Part shown: positions 45,035 through 56,842 of the stretch, piece by piece
How the letters are laid out: every line of letters starts with the position of its first letter
How positions within the stretch are numbered: the stretch's first letter is position 1
Source of the DNA: Paraburkholderia sp. HP33-1
GTDB taxonomy: Bacteria; Pseudomonadota; Gammaproteobacteria; Burkholderiales; Burkholderiaceae
DNA length: 64,000 bases
Assembly: GCF_021390595.1 (NCBI RefSeq)
Contig: NZ_JAJEJR010000001.1
Span: 3,410,001 to 3,474,000 of the forward strand
Direction: 5' to 3'
The notes under the pieces: generated by a model
What the model was told of the DNA's origin: nothing
The model's database searches: none
What the model saw: only the letters and a program-made list of their open reading frames with translations
Position numbers and translations under genes: made by a program

Positions 45035-45952
45035 TCATCCGCCGCGCGCCGCGCCAGCCCGATCAGCGACCTCGTTCCACAGATGCATCGCGGCATACGC
45101 GCGATAAGGCCGCCACGTGTCGGTGCGGCTGCGCTGCTGCGCGGGCCGCACGAGCGATGGATCGCGCGCGCAGATCGATTGCATCAGCACGAGATCCGAC
45201 GCGGGCCATGCGTCGGGATCACGCCATGCGCGCATCGCGACGTATTCGACGGTCCAGGGCCCGATGCCCGCGAGCGCAAGCAATGCGGCGCGCAGGCTTG
45301 CGGCGTCGATGGCATCGCTGTCGAGCGGCACGTCGCCGCTCGCGACCGCGCGCGCGAAGCCCTGCAACGCAGCGACGCGTTTGCCCGGCATGCCAATCTG
45401 CGCGAGATCGGCTCCGGCGAGCGCGGCCGGCGTCGGAAAACGCCACGCGGTGTTTTCATGTGGATGCCCGTCGATGCGTTCGCCCGCGCGCTGCACGAGC
45501 CGCCCGATGATCGTCGTCGCGGCCTTCACGCTGACCTGCTGACCGACGATCGCACGCACCACCAGCTCGAAGCCCGACCACGCGCCCGGCACACGCAAAC
45601 CGGGGACCGCAGCGACGAGCGGCGCGAGCCACGGGTCCGAGGCGAGCGCGGCGGCGATCTTCTTCGGATCAGCACGCAGATCGAACATCTTCGCGACTGG
45701 CGTCGAGAGCGCATCGGCGTGACGACTCGCCGGCCCTTCGATGCTCGCGATGATGCAGCGCTTGCGCGGATGCAGCCGCACGCTGAGCGTGCCGCTGTCA
45801 CCGTTCCAGTCGATCGCGCGGCGATACGCGCCGTCCTCGACGGCCTCGACGCCGGGCGTCGCGCGGCCGCTGAAAAACCGCAGCAGCCGAGGCCAGTCGA
45901 ACGGTGCCTTGAACGGTAATTCGAGCGTTGCGACGTCGTTAAGCGTGCTCAA
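45035..45952 (-). CDS. alkA: DNA-3-methyladenine glycosylase II (AlkA-type)
   Basis: A 305-residue helix-hairpin-helix glycosylase. The hairpin is in LLALAGIGPWTVEYVAMRAW and the catalytic aspartate in WPASDLVLM. The N-terminal AlkA domain (LPFKAPFDWPRLLRFFSGRATPGVE) is present. It removes alkylated bases. It overlaps ada by four bases (45949-45952), which makes an adaptive-response operon with the regulator first. Confidence 0.94.
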   Translation of the reverse strand: MSTLNDVATLELPFKAPFDWPRLLRFFSGRATPGVEAVEDGAYRRAIDWNGDSGTLSVRLHPRKRCIIASIEGPASRHADALSTPVAKMFDLRADPKKIAAALASDPWLAPLVAAVPGLRVPGAWSGFELVVRAIVGQQVSVKAATTIIGRLVQRAGERIDGHPHENTAWRFPTPAALAGADLAQIGMPGKRVAALQGFARAVASGDVPLDSDAIDAASLRAALLALAGIGPWTVEYVAMRAWRDPDAWPASDLVLMQSICARDPSLVRPAQQRSRTDTWRPYRAYAAMHLWNEVADRAGAARGG

Positions 45953-47130
45953 GCGGCGTGATCCAGTTGGGAGTTGCGGGAATGAGCGTCGGTATCGGCA
46001 CGGCTCGCGTCGCCGGCTGAAACGCCGCCTGCGTGCTGCGCCTCATTGTCGAGCAAGGCGGCCTTGCGCGGCAGCCCCCAGCGATAGCCGGCGAGCGCCC
46101 CACCCTTTTGCACGACGCGATGGCATGGAATCGCGAGCGCGACTGGATTCGTCGCGCATGCGCTGGCCACTGCGCGCACCGCGCGCGGCGAGCCGACGGC
46201 CTCGGCGATCTGCGAGTAGCTGCGCGTCTCGCCGTACGGGATGCGCCGCAGCGCATCCCACACGCGCTGCTTGAATGCGGTCGAGGCGATATCGAGCGGC
46301 AGGTCGAAGTCCTGGCGAGTGCCGCGCAGATACGCGTCGATCTGCGCGATGAACGGCGCGAGCCGCCCGGCGTCTTCGCGCAGCTCGGCATTCGCGAACT
46401 CGCCGCGCAATTCATCGATCAGCGGGGCGGGGTCATCGCCGAAGCCGATCTTGCAGATGCCCTTGTCTGTCGCGGCGACCAGCACGAAGCCGAGCGAGTT
46501 CGGCGCGCTCGCGTAGCACACCGTGAGCCCGGCACCTTTGCGCCGATACGCGGACGGCGCCATACCGAGCTCGGCCGGCGCGCTGTCGTACATCCGCGAC
46601 GGCGAGCCGAAACCGGCGTCGAGCGTCGCGCGCGTGACGTCGGCGCCGCCTTGCAGCGCATCGCGCAACGCGGCGCCGCGCTGCGCGGCCTGGTACTGAC
46701 GCGGTGACACGCCGACCACGCGCTTGAACAGGCGTTGCAAATGAAACGGGCTCACGTGCACGGCGTCGCTCAGTTGCGCGAGCGTGAGGCGCTGCTGCGG
46801 ATCGGCGTCGAGCGCGGCACACGCCCGAGCGACGATGTCGAGCTCGCGCGGCAGGCCGCCGGGCTGGCAGCGCTTGCAATCGCGAAAGCCCGCGGCGCGA
46901 GCAGCGGCGGCATCGGTGAAGAAGGCGACGTTTTCGCGGTGCGGCAGGCGCGACGCGCAAGATGGCCGGCAGAACACGCCGGTCGTCCTGACCGCGTAGA
47001 AGAATGCGCCGTCGGCGTCGCGGTCGCGGTGCGTGACGGCGTCCCAGCGTTCGTCGTCGGTGCGCCACTGGGTGGTGTCGACGTCGCCGGCGGTGTGCAC
47101 GGTGGCGAATTGGCGGGTGGTGGCGTTCAT
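45949..47130 (-). CDS. ada: Bifunctional Ada regulator / O6-methylguanine-DNA methyltransferase
   Basis: A 393-residue Ada. The N-terminal methylphosphotriester domain has the four zinc cysteines (FCRPSCASR and CKRCQPGG). The AraC-type HTH follows (LSDAVHVSPFHLQRLFKRVVGVSPRQY). The C-terminal methyltransferase has the acceptor cysteine in AIPCHRVVQKGG. Methylation of the first domain turns Ada into an activator of its own operon. alkA follows with a four-base overlap. Confidence 0.96.
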   Translation of the reverse strand: MNATTRQFATVHTAGDVDTTQWRTDDERWDAVTHRDRDADGAFFYAVRTTGVFCRPSCASRLPHRENVAFFTDAAAARAAGFRDCKRCQPGGLPRELDIVARACAALDADPQQRLTLAQLSDAVHVSPFHLQRLFKRVVGVSPRQYQAAQRGAALRDALQGGADVTRATLDAGFGSPSRMYDSAPAELGMAPSAYRRKGAGLTVCYASAPNSLGFVLVAATDKGICKIGFGDDPAPLIDELRGEFANAELREDAGRLAPFIAQIDAYLRGTRQDFDLPLDIASTAFKQRVWDALRRIPYGETRSYSQIAEAVGSPRAVRAVASACATNPVALAIPCHRVVQKGGALAGYRWGLPRKAALLDNEAQHAGGVSAGDASRADTDAHSRNSQLDHAA

Positions 47131-47365
47131 GATGTCCTCGGAGCCCGGATGAGCAGGTGATGACGATGGTCATCAATGTAGGCCCGATCTCTACACAGTA
47201 CGCGCCGGTTCTTGCTCTGTCATTCGACCGCGCTTTCGCTTGGTTGTTGTAGGGTCAAAACTCGTTAAATCGCAATCCGAAACGCTTCGAACCGCCTGCT
47301 GGCCGGGCTTTTCGCCTCAAATTGCGACAATTTGGCACGATGTCGGGTTTTCCCTTAAAAAGTTA

Positions 47366-47394
47366 TTGCGTCGCACCAACCCGATGTGTATATT
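47366..47394 (+). promoter_or_regulatory. Sigma-70-type promoter of the small RNA candidate
   Basis: TTGCGT (47366-47371) and TATATT (47389-47394) are separated by 17 bp, the ideal spacing. The predicted start is near 47401. A perfect inverted repeat lies 33 bp upstream (47319-47333) and could be an operator. Confidence 0.6.
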
Positions 47395-47400
47395 AGGAAC

Positions 47401-47464
47401 TGTCTCCTCCATGTCTCCTCCTGATATGGATTCAGCCCGCTCCACTTGAGCGGGCTTTTTTTTT
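47401..47464 (+). ncRNA. Candidate tiny sRNA with two anti-Shine-Dalgarno motifs
   Basis: The predicted transcript is about 64 nt. It starts next to the first of two TCTCCTCC motifs (47403-47410 and 47414-47421), each complementary to the Shine-Dalgarno GGAGGAGA. A 12-nt linker leads into the hairpin AGCCCGCT-CCACTTG-AGCGGGCT (47434-47456) and nine T residues. The promoter described above places the start at about 47401. No gene upstream on this strand would need the terminator. The RNA could block ribosome binding sites of many messages. Its expression is not shown by the sequence. Confidence 0.6.
47434..47464 (+). terminator. Rho-independent terminator of the sRNA candidate
   Basis: Perfect 8-bp stem AGCCCGCT/AGCGGGCT with a 7-nt loop, followed by nine T residues. 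Confidence 0.85.
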
Positions 47465-47551: not shown

Positions 47552-47848
47552 TTATTCCCACTCATGTGGGTAGGGCATCTGGCGCTCGCGTTCGACTTCG
47601 ATCGCGAAGGCGACCGCTTCTTCGAAGTCACGGTCGGTATAGGCCGAAGCAACATCTGCTGGTTCGCTCTTGCTTGGACTTTCCGCGAGAGAGCCGTGAT
47701 CAACTAAGAGGTCTGCGCTGCCTTGCCTATCCCTTGCGAGCCGTCGTGCGATAGCCTTGTGCAGGCGAGTCTTTACCGCGCCAACGTCAGACATTGCCAG
47801 GATCGCCACTCCGACAATACTAAAAAACACATCCCCGGATACAGTCAT
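47552..47848 (-). CDS. Hypothetical small protein
   Basis: A 98-residue ORF with a hydrophobic N-terminus (VFFSIVGVAILAMSDVG) and a charged C-terminal half rich in Asp, Glu and Arg. I do not recognise a family. The region is AT-richer than its surroundings and the ribosome binding site is weak, so it may be acquired DNA or not a gene. It is convergent with the sRNA candidate. Confidence 0.4.
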   Translation of the reverse strand: MTVSGDVFFSIVGVAILAMSDVGAVKTRLHKAIARRLARDRQGSADLLVDHGSLAESPSKSEPADVASAYTDRDFEEAVAFAIEVERERQMPYPHEWE

Positions 47849-48122: not shown

Positions 48123-48548
48123 ATGAAAATCCACATTCGCGAGATCGACCACGTCGTGATCCGCGCGACCCACGCCGACACGTTGTCGCGCTTTTACTGC
48201 GACGTGCTCGGTTGCAGCGTTGAAAAGGAGCAGCGCGAACTTGGCCTCACACAACTGCGCGCGGGACGTTCGCTGATCGATGTGCTGCAGGCCGGTGCGA
48301 AGCTGGATCGCGCGGAAAACGGCGCGGCGGGAGCGGGACGCAACATGGATCACCTGTGTCTGCGCGTCGAGTCGTTCGACGCCGACGCGCTGAAGGCGCA
48401 TCTGAGCGCGCATGGCGCGCGGCTCGGCGAACAGGGGGTGCGTTATGGTGCGGACGGCTTCGGACCGTCGCTGTATCTGTTCGACCCGGAGGGCAACATG
48501 GTCGAACTGAAGGGGCCGCCGGAAGCGGCACGGGTCACATCGCTCTGA
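48123..48548 (+). CDS. VOC/glyoxalase superfamily protein
   Basis: A 141-residue vicinal oxygen chelate protein with two beta-alpha-beta modules (IREIDHVVIRATHADTLSRFYCDVLG and MDHLCLRVESFDADALKAHLSAHG) and the metal ligands His in IDHVV and MDHLC, Glu in NMVELKG. These mark a metal-dependent isomerase, dioxygenase or resistance protein. The substrate is unknown. It is transcribed alone. Confidence 0.87.
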   Translation: MKIHIREIDHVVIRATHADTLSRFYCDVLGCSVEKEQRELGLTQLRAGRSLIDVLQAGAKLDRAENGAAGAGRNMDHLCLRVESFDADALKAHLSAHGARLGEQGVRYGADGFGPSLYLFDPEGNMVELKGPPEAARVTSL

Positions 48549-56348: not shown

Positions 56349-56842
56349 TTCTTCCTCCGGTGCGGGCCGAAAAAATACTCGGGTTAGCTATGTATTTAAC
56401 TTTATCGATTGACCCACAACTTGCACTCTAGGAGAACCATGGAGAACGACAAGCACATCTTGTGTGCGGTTGCAACAGTGTCGAATTGTCGCACCCAGTG
56501 TCGCTGCTGATTAAGGCTTGACCAAACCCCTGATCGAACAGCAATGAAACGGATAAATAATAAATTGATCGTTCGCGCGCCTTTAACTGGTAAAGCTTTG
56601 CGCGCGTATTCTCGTAAACGCGTAGGAGAAATTAAGAGAATTACTACTATTTAATCCGCCGCTTTGTGCGTCGCACACAAAGTCATTCAGCGGGCAAAGG
56701 CCGGCATGCGCAATAACGAGGCAGATGTAGAAGATAAACAGTGCCAGCCGCTGATCGAGCATCTTTCCGACGCGCCTGGCCGCCATGCGGATATAAGCGT
56801 TGCTCTACAATTGAAACGAATCTCCTGCGACTGGAGGCTATC
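56349..56842. other. AT-richer intergenic region with a possible 23-codon ORF
   Basis: The sequence has lower GC than its flanks. It holds one well-placed tiny ORF (56439-56510), described separately, and a GC-palindromic segment near 56570-56605. No other gene is supported. Confidence 0.45.
56439..56510 (+). CDS. Possible 23-residue cysteine-rich peptide
   Basis: The ATG follows GGAGAACC at good spacing and the frame ends at a TGA. The peptide would have four cysteines, three of them in the C-terminal C-x3-C-x-C. There is no family to compare it with, and chance ORFs of this size are common, so it is only a candidate. Confidence 0.25.
   Translation: MENDKHILCAVATVSNCRTQCRC

Follow-up and report, generated by a model that had tools for sequence, protein, structure and literature searches.

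What controls a small RNA whose two anti-Shine-Dalgarno (anti-SD) segments could pair with ribosome binding sites, and to which family does it belong? Both questions are raised by a locus in the stretch of Paraburkholderia sp. HP33-1 DNA analysed here (64,000 nt, referred to as the window), where positions 47401-47464 of the plus strand encode an RF02278 "double-hairpin" sRNA, an identity established from covariance model and fold. Already in the literature are the RNA itself, the family to which it belongs and the way such RNAs generally act, by occlusion of ribosome binding sites. The addition made here is the predicted assignment of its promoter to PhaR, a repressor that is titrated by PHB granules.

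A double-hairpin RNA next to ada

In an Rfam covariance scan the RNA matches RF02278 ("Betaproteobacteria toxic sRNA") at 83.6 bits (cut-off 50), with 47401-47463 covering model positions 1-64 of 64. The RNA thus belongs to a described family, to which the original prediction had been unable to assign it, and the other parts of that prediction, a short independent RNA (about 64 nt) that carries two anti-SD segments and ends in an intrinsic terminator, are all found in the sequence. The folding energy is -27.7 kcal/mol (z -7.2), and none of 200 shuffles was equally stable. The fold consists of two hairpins. The first copy of TCTCCTCC (47403-47410, plus strand) lies mostly in the 5' tail with its last three bases in stem 1, and the second (47414-47421, plus strand) falls largely within the loop of hairpin 1, which holds its UCCUCC. 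Hairpin 1 spans 47408-47430 by minimum free energy and the Rfam structure; hairpin 2 (47434-47456) and a T-run reaching 47464 together form the intrinsic terminator. Both occurrences of TCTCCTCC in the whole window, both strands counted, are those of the RNA; 1.12 are expected and 28 of 100 shuffles reach at least two, so the count alone is unremarkable.

The 17-bp-spaced promoter that had been proposed is present as well, with TTGCGT as the -35 hexamer (47366-47371, plus strand), TATATT as the -10 hexamer (47389-47394), a 17-nt spacer between them and a transcript start near 47401. The -35 hexamer matches TTGACA at only three of six positions, which is why this promoter is missing from the output of a simple promoter scan.

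In the source genome, RF02278 has three over-cut-off copies and a further weak one. Matches were found in 26 of 31 genomes including the source (over the cut-off in 24) and, at E <= 1e-7, in 55 of 120 genomes across the order (over the cut-off in 49). The two-hairpin fold occurs in 143/143 over-cut-off matches, CUCC within the first 8 nt in 142/143 and unpaired CUCC at nt 9-32 in 85/143; these matches were chosen by the covariance model, and the two-hairpin and CUCC counts therefore lean toward that model. One genome (G025) has eight copies over the cut-off, including a tandem pair (L141, G025:C1:1646160-1646602) with starts about 380 nt apart.

Published passages name RNAs of this type double-hairpin RNAs and describe them as CU-rich and predicted to cover ribosome binding sites; four are reported for B. 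cenocepacia J2315 and four for Herbaspirillum seropedicae. The window copy is like the B. cenocepacia RNAs ncS03, ncS05, ncS27 and ncS62 in its full-length covariance match, two hairpins, CU-rich 5' tail and loop and several copies per genome, and no difference was found at the RNA level. By gene orientation, it is probably of the ncS05 type.

On one side of the sRNA lies ada (45949-47130, minus strand; Ada zinc-binding, AraC HTH and methyltransferase domains by Pfam), and downstream lies a conserved glyoxalase-like (VOC) gene (48123-48548, plus strand). Leaving the window aside, all ada-side orthologous loci keep this order (19/19; one best RF02278 locus per genome, from G137 and 18 genomes of the same genus). 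The adjacency to ada that the original prediction had pointed out is therefore a conserved one, but no tie of the RNA to the Ada response was found. A DNA-alkylation-stress RNA, co-regulated with its divergent neighbour ada, would fit the conserved order. However, in the source genome two of the three over-cut-off copies are located elsewhere, no ada match was found at 38/58 RF02278 loci (flanks of up to 1.5 kb searched), and the published sRNA table, in the part seen, covers nutrients, osmotic stress and pH, with alkylation not among the conditions. An alkylation-stress role is thus considered extremely improbable. Between the sRNA and the glyoxalase-like gene there is also a 98-aa frame (47552-47848, minus strand), matched at 0/57 other loci and without a Pfam family, which is either lineage-specific or no gene.

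A predicted PhaR site over the -35 hexamer

The motif in the sRNA promoter is like the PhaR site at phasin promoters, a likeness that was the origin of the hypothesis. The published PhaR consensus of R. eutropha (Ralstonia) is YTKNTGCRNYGCANMAR. In S. meliloti the site is described as a palindrome around YGCRNYGCR, and PhaR has been reported to shift the promoters of phaP1, phaP2, phaZ, SMa1961 and the sRNA gene mmgR; these shifts were lost once the palindromes were removed or mutated. In the window, a predicted PhaR site, TTATTGCGTCGCACCAA (47363-47379, plus strand; core 47367-47375), is found one mismatch away from YTKNTGCRNYGCANMAR and overlapping the -35 hexamer of the sRNA.

A PhaR gene is present in the source genome (PF07879, 109 bits), and the consensus occurs at one mismatch in all three promoters of its over-cut-off RF02278 copies, the other two carrying TTGCGACGCACCAA and TTGCGTCGCACAA. 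The predicted site starts at -38 in the ada-side and second copies. In the third copy it starts at -67, and there the Rfam match seems to begin within a longer transcript. The chance of a site with at most one mismatch is about 0.2% per 150 nt, and that of three of three about 1e-8, base composition not being allowed for. The pattern itself is not enriched genome-wide: the consensus at up to one mismatch is found at 104 places in 7.35 Mb versus 94 for the reversed control, and TTGCNNNGCANMAA at 42 places versus 54. The pattern is therefore informative only in its promoter context and by comparison. The main phasin promoter (L038) has two one-mismatch sites, TTGTGCGTCGCACAA and TTGCTGCGATGCACAA; the second phasin promoter (L039) has TTGCTGCGTCGCATCAA with no mismatch; and a PHB depolymerase gene (TIGR01849, 588.7 bits) has a PhaR-type site with no mismatch upstream. 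The L039 promoter and the depolymerase upstream region account for two of the four exact consensus places in the genome, and one of the other two carries no gene assignment. Just upstream of the phaR gene, a TGCNNNGCA site was not found.

Several further sites were observed. Another exact consensus place (L197, G000:C3:582292-582308) lies upstream of a gene for a sugar-type ABC transporter substrate-binding protein, and a wider carbon regulon is possible. In addition to its promoter site, the third RF02278 copy (L003) has a one-mismatch PhaR-type site some 240 nt upstream (G000:C1:2897660-2897676). The window itself contains a second PhaR-type palindrome at 56663-56679 (TTTGTGCGTCGCACACA, one mismatch), near which no Pfam family was found in three tested frames.

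The original prediction had based a regulated promoter on the upstream palindrome AAATTG-CGA-CAATTT (AAATTGCGACAATTT, 47319-47333). As an operator, this palindrome was rejected: AAATTGNNNCAATTT occurs exactly only once in the 7.35 Mb genome, at 47319-47333 itself, and is exact in 1/20 ada-side orthologues (window included). The form TGCGNCAA is kept in 17/20, and only the inner TGCGACAA, a possible half-site, is conserved. The promoter is still probably regulated, but it is the palindrome over the -35 that is more widely kept, with YGCRNYGCR in 19 of the same 20 orthologues and the stricter TGCRNYGCA in 10; TATANT at the -10 is found in 19.

The site in genomes with and without PhaR

The comparison used 153 RF02278 matches with 120 nt upstream, 143 of them at 50 bits or more. 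Of the sub-cut-off rows of the 31-genome scan, this set keeps only the source genome's own weak match (L031 and L032 were retrieved but are not counted), and one sub-cut-off row of the 120-genome scan, G021:C15, is left out as well. The consensus with up to two mismatches was found within 120 nt of 35/61 matches in PhaR-carrying genomes of the order (n = 38) and of 55/68 matches in same-genus genomes (n = 18, all 18 with a PhaR gene), versus 2/24 matches in PhaR-less genomes (n = 17). For the same three groups, the control region 280-400 nt upstream gave 4/61, 2/68 and 1/22, the downstream control 8/61, 2/68 and 0/24, and shuffles 40/1220, 36/1360 and 7/480.

The exact core TGCRNYGCA separates the groups in the same order: it is present within 150 nt at 38/61, 44/68 and 0/24 matches, compared with 3/61, 4/68 and 0/22 far upstream and 9/61, 3/68 and 0/24 downstream. 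If only matches of at least 50 bits are considered, the counts are 36/56, 44/68 and 0/19, and each of six scrambled versions of the core yielded no more than 0 to 2 matches per set. By genome, the core is found in 29/38, 18/18 and 0/17. At least one copy with the exact core within 150 nt is thus present in 47/56 PhaR-carrying versus 0/17 PhaR-less RF02278 genomes, kinship not being corrected for, and Fisher's test of 29/38 versus 0/17 gives 4.6e-8, likewise uncorrected for kinship. Both the lack of PhaR and the type of promoter seem to follow clades, the PhaR-less genomes apparently falling into few lineages, and these counts therefore reflect few independent events. Two of the 17 PhaR-less genomes (G109, G118) are under 90% complete.

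Another CU-rich sRNA, anti-hemB, served as a control in 19 genomes of the same genus, two cut loci being dropped, and the core was found at 1/18 of its loci versus 47/71 RF02278 loci. The looser core YGCRNYGCR was dropped as a test, being frequent far upstream (15/61 in PhaR-carrying order genomes and 21/68 in same-genus genomes) and present in 12/18 anti-hemB controls.

A named scan returned at least 120 stretches, 80 of them listed, with three short loci that do not have the full upstream region; its species or records may overlap with those of the first set, and it is a check, not an independent sample. Among the at least 120 stretches, the core is present at 51/77 listed loci with full upstream sequence and at 32/40 unlisted ones, and the far-upstream control, at 14/72 listed and 7/39 unlisted, is higher than in the first set. 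PhaR was looked for at 48 of the 80 listed loci, one of which (L251) was short and was dropped. Among those listed, the core is found at 30/41 PhaR-carrying versus 0/6 PhaR-less loci, the latter being five Thiobacillus and one unclassified.

The palindrome TTGCGTCGCACCAA could instead be bound by another factor of similar specificity, or be a mere extended -35, with PhaR uninvolved. Its overlap with the -35 hexamer would agree with this, as would the absence of the exact core within 150 nt in 9/38 PhaR-carrying genomes of the order; the same absence is seen at 11/41 named PhaR-carrying loci among those listed. Of the three Cupriavidus loci, those of Cupriavidus YR651 and C. lacunae, both with PhaR, have no core within 400 nt; in C. 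gilardii the core lies at -152 and in Bordetella genomosp. 12 at -158, just beyond the 150-nt limit. RF02278 is also as frequent without PhaR as with it (17/37 PhaR-less versus 38/83 PhaR-carrying genomes), which is no association at the gene level; the link to PhaR is therefore regulatory, not obligatory. On the other hand, the conserved bases extend into the spacer and are palindromic, and the position of the site floats, with 37/84 cores at -30 to -26 and the rest at about -65, at about -85 or elsewhere. The phasin and depolymerase genes bear the same motif, and the core is found in 0/17 PhaR-less genomes. A different factor or an extended -35 is thus judged unlikely, and control by PhaR is the preferred reading.

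A proposed PHB-responsive circuit and its relatives

When PHB is absent, PhaR bound to TTATTGCGTCGCACCAA would block RNA polymerase at the sigma-70 promoter of the sRNA. Carbon excess would lead to PHB granules that bind PhaR and free the promoter, and the freed sRNA would rise together with the phasins as a brake on further carbon uptake. The 5' tail and first loop would expose the CU-rich anti-SD segments for pairing with ribosome binding sites, and this pairing may lower the translation of carbon-uptake and catabolic mRNAs and so slow growth, as has been published for overexpression of the relative ncS27. From promoter comparison, it is considered likely that PhaR represses the RF02278 sRNA via the -35 palindrome, that PHB releases this repression and that the RNA then brakes carbon-uptake genes.

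Glucose medium has been reported to raise ncS03 8.0-fold, ncS05 6.9-fold and ncS27 4.3-fold (Sass 2017). Other-family sRNAs (ncS06, ncS25, ncS35) also rise; ncS62 is absent from the published glucose-response table in the part seen, and the B. cenocepacia anti-hemB homologue ncS04 is given there with no significant change. If the proposed circuit is true, it would provide a named regulator and a physical signal, the PHB granules, for double-hairpin sRNAs, the regulator of whose accumulation is stated to be unknown (Sass 2017), and it would help to explain why they accumulate in a glucose mineral medium that contains little peptone or yeast extract. Sass 2017 also points to an upstream motif common to three homologues, which is plausibly the site described here. 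The circuit would further connect the storage polymer with the sRNA networks of Betaproteobacteria, in parallel to the rhizobial MmgR circuit, and could matter for bioplastic production, where growth and uptake have to be balanced against PHB. A link between PhaR and RF02278 was not found in literature searches based on listings and passages, the ncS27 paper (Sass 2019) lying outside their scope.

Alternatively, the RNA could be a bulk decoy or toxin whose anti-SD action depresses the translation of any SD-led mRNA, and not a tuned carbon regulator. The family takes its name from the toxicity of its RNAs when cloned in E. coli (Kimelman 2012, as recounted by later papers), and in a simple duplex test with five genes the best pairing was that of genes with strong SDs. 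Overexpressed ncS27, however, slows growth on some substrates only and altered the expression of predicted targets (review of Sass 2019), and the Bordetella relative S17 is reported not to be similarly toxic in E. coli. A decoy is therefore regarded as rather doubtful, and a carbon regulator under PhaR is preferred. As to its targets, phasin mRNAs, which would be favoured by analogy with MmgR, were tried and set aside: the two PhaR-site phasins did not stand out by duplex energy (shuffle fraction 0.15 for each), and good pairing with the sRNA was seen for two further phasin-like genes whose SDs are strong, as any strong SD would give.

The closest parallel in control is MmgR of S. meliloti (alpha-r8 family, with partial homology to RF00519), whose promoter is bound and repressed by PhaR (AniA) according to published passages. 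MmgR is described as a 77-nt RNA with stem-loops, an anti-SD loop, a promoter dyad and a link to PHB and the C:N balance, all of which recall the window RNA; its own features are induction by NtrC and a lowering effect on phasin levels. The window RNA scores 28.7 bits against RF00519 (cut-off 41) and is not a member. MmgR may thus be viewed as a functional parallel, which does not imply common descent. Anti-hemB RNAs likewise have CU-rich loops before the terminator, but the window RNA, at 34.9 bits, is below the RF02837 cut-off of 49.5 and is not a member, and 17/18 true anti-hemB loci are without the PhaR core.

Cuckoo RNAs also share CU-rich loops before a terminator and carry CCUCCUCCC loops behind a DUF1127 gene. 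In the window, by contrast, the motif is UCUCCUCC and not a CCUCCUCCC loop, the RNA has its own promoter, and the gene upstream is ada, which runs in the opposite direction, instead of a DUF1127 gene. The 5' end of Bordetella pertussis S17 is reported to match RF02278 RNAs; S17 differs in being Hfq-dependent, and its paper, to judge by the title, discusses it in the virulence mode; PhaR did not turn up in a word search of that text.

More broadly, PHB granules may serve as the sensor for global translational brakes, with PhaR controlling anti-SD sRNAs in both Alpha- and Betaproteobacteria (MmgR; RF02278, often in several copies) and PhaR-less lineages keeping the RNA with another promoter palindrome; this wider scheme is thought somewhat more probable than its opposite. 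The motif TTAG-N6..8-CTAA is found within 150 nt upstream of 11/24 matches in PhaR-less genomes versus 0/129 in PhaR-carrying ones, and of 6/6 PhaR-less versus 0/42 PhaR-carrying named loci among those listed. At these PhaR-less Burkholderiales loci, the motif forms a palindrome like ATATTAGATAATTCTAATAAC that lies over a -10-like sequence about 30-60 nt upstream of the sRNA, as seen at L081, L160, L168, L174, L222, L229, L244, L249, L269 and other loci.
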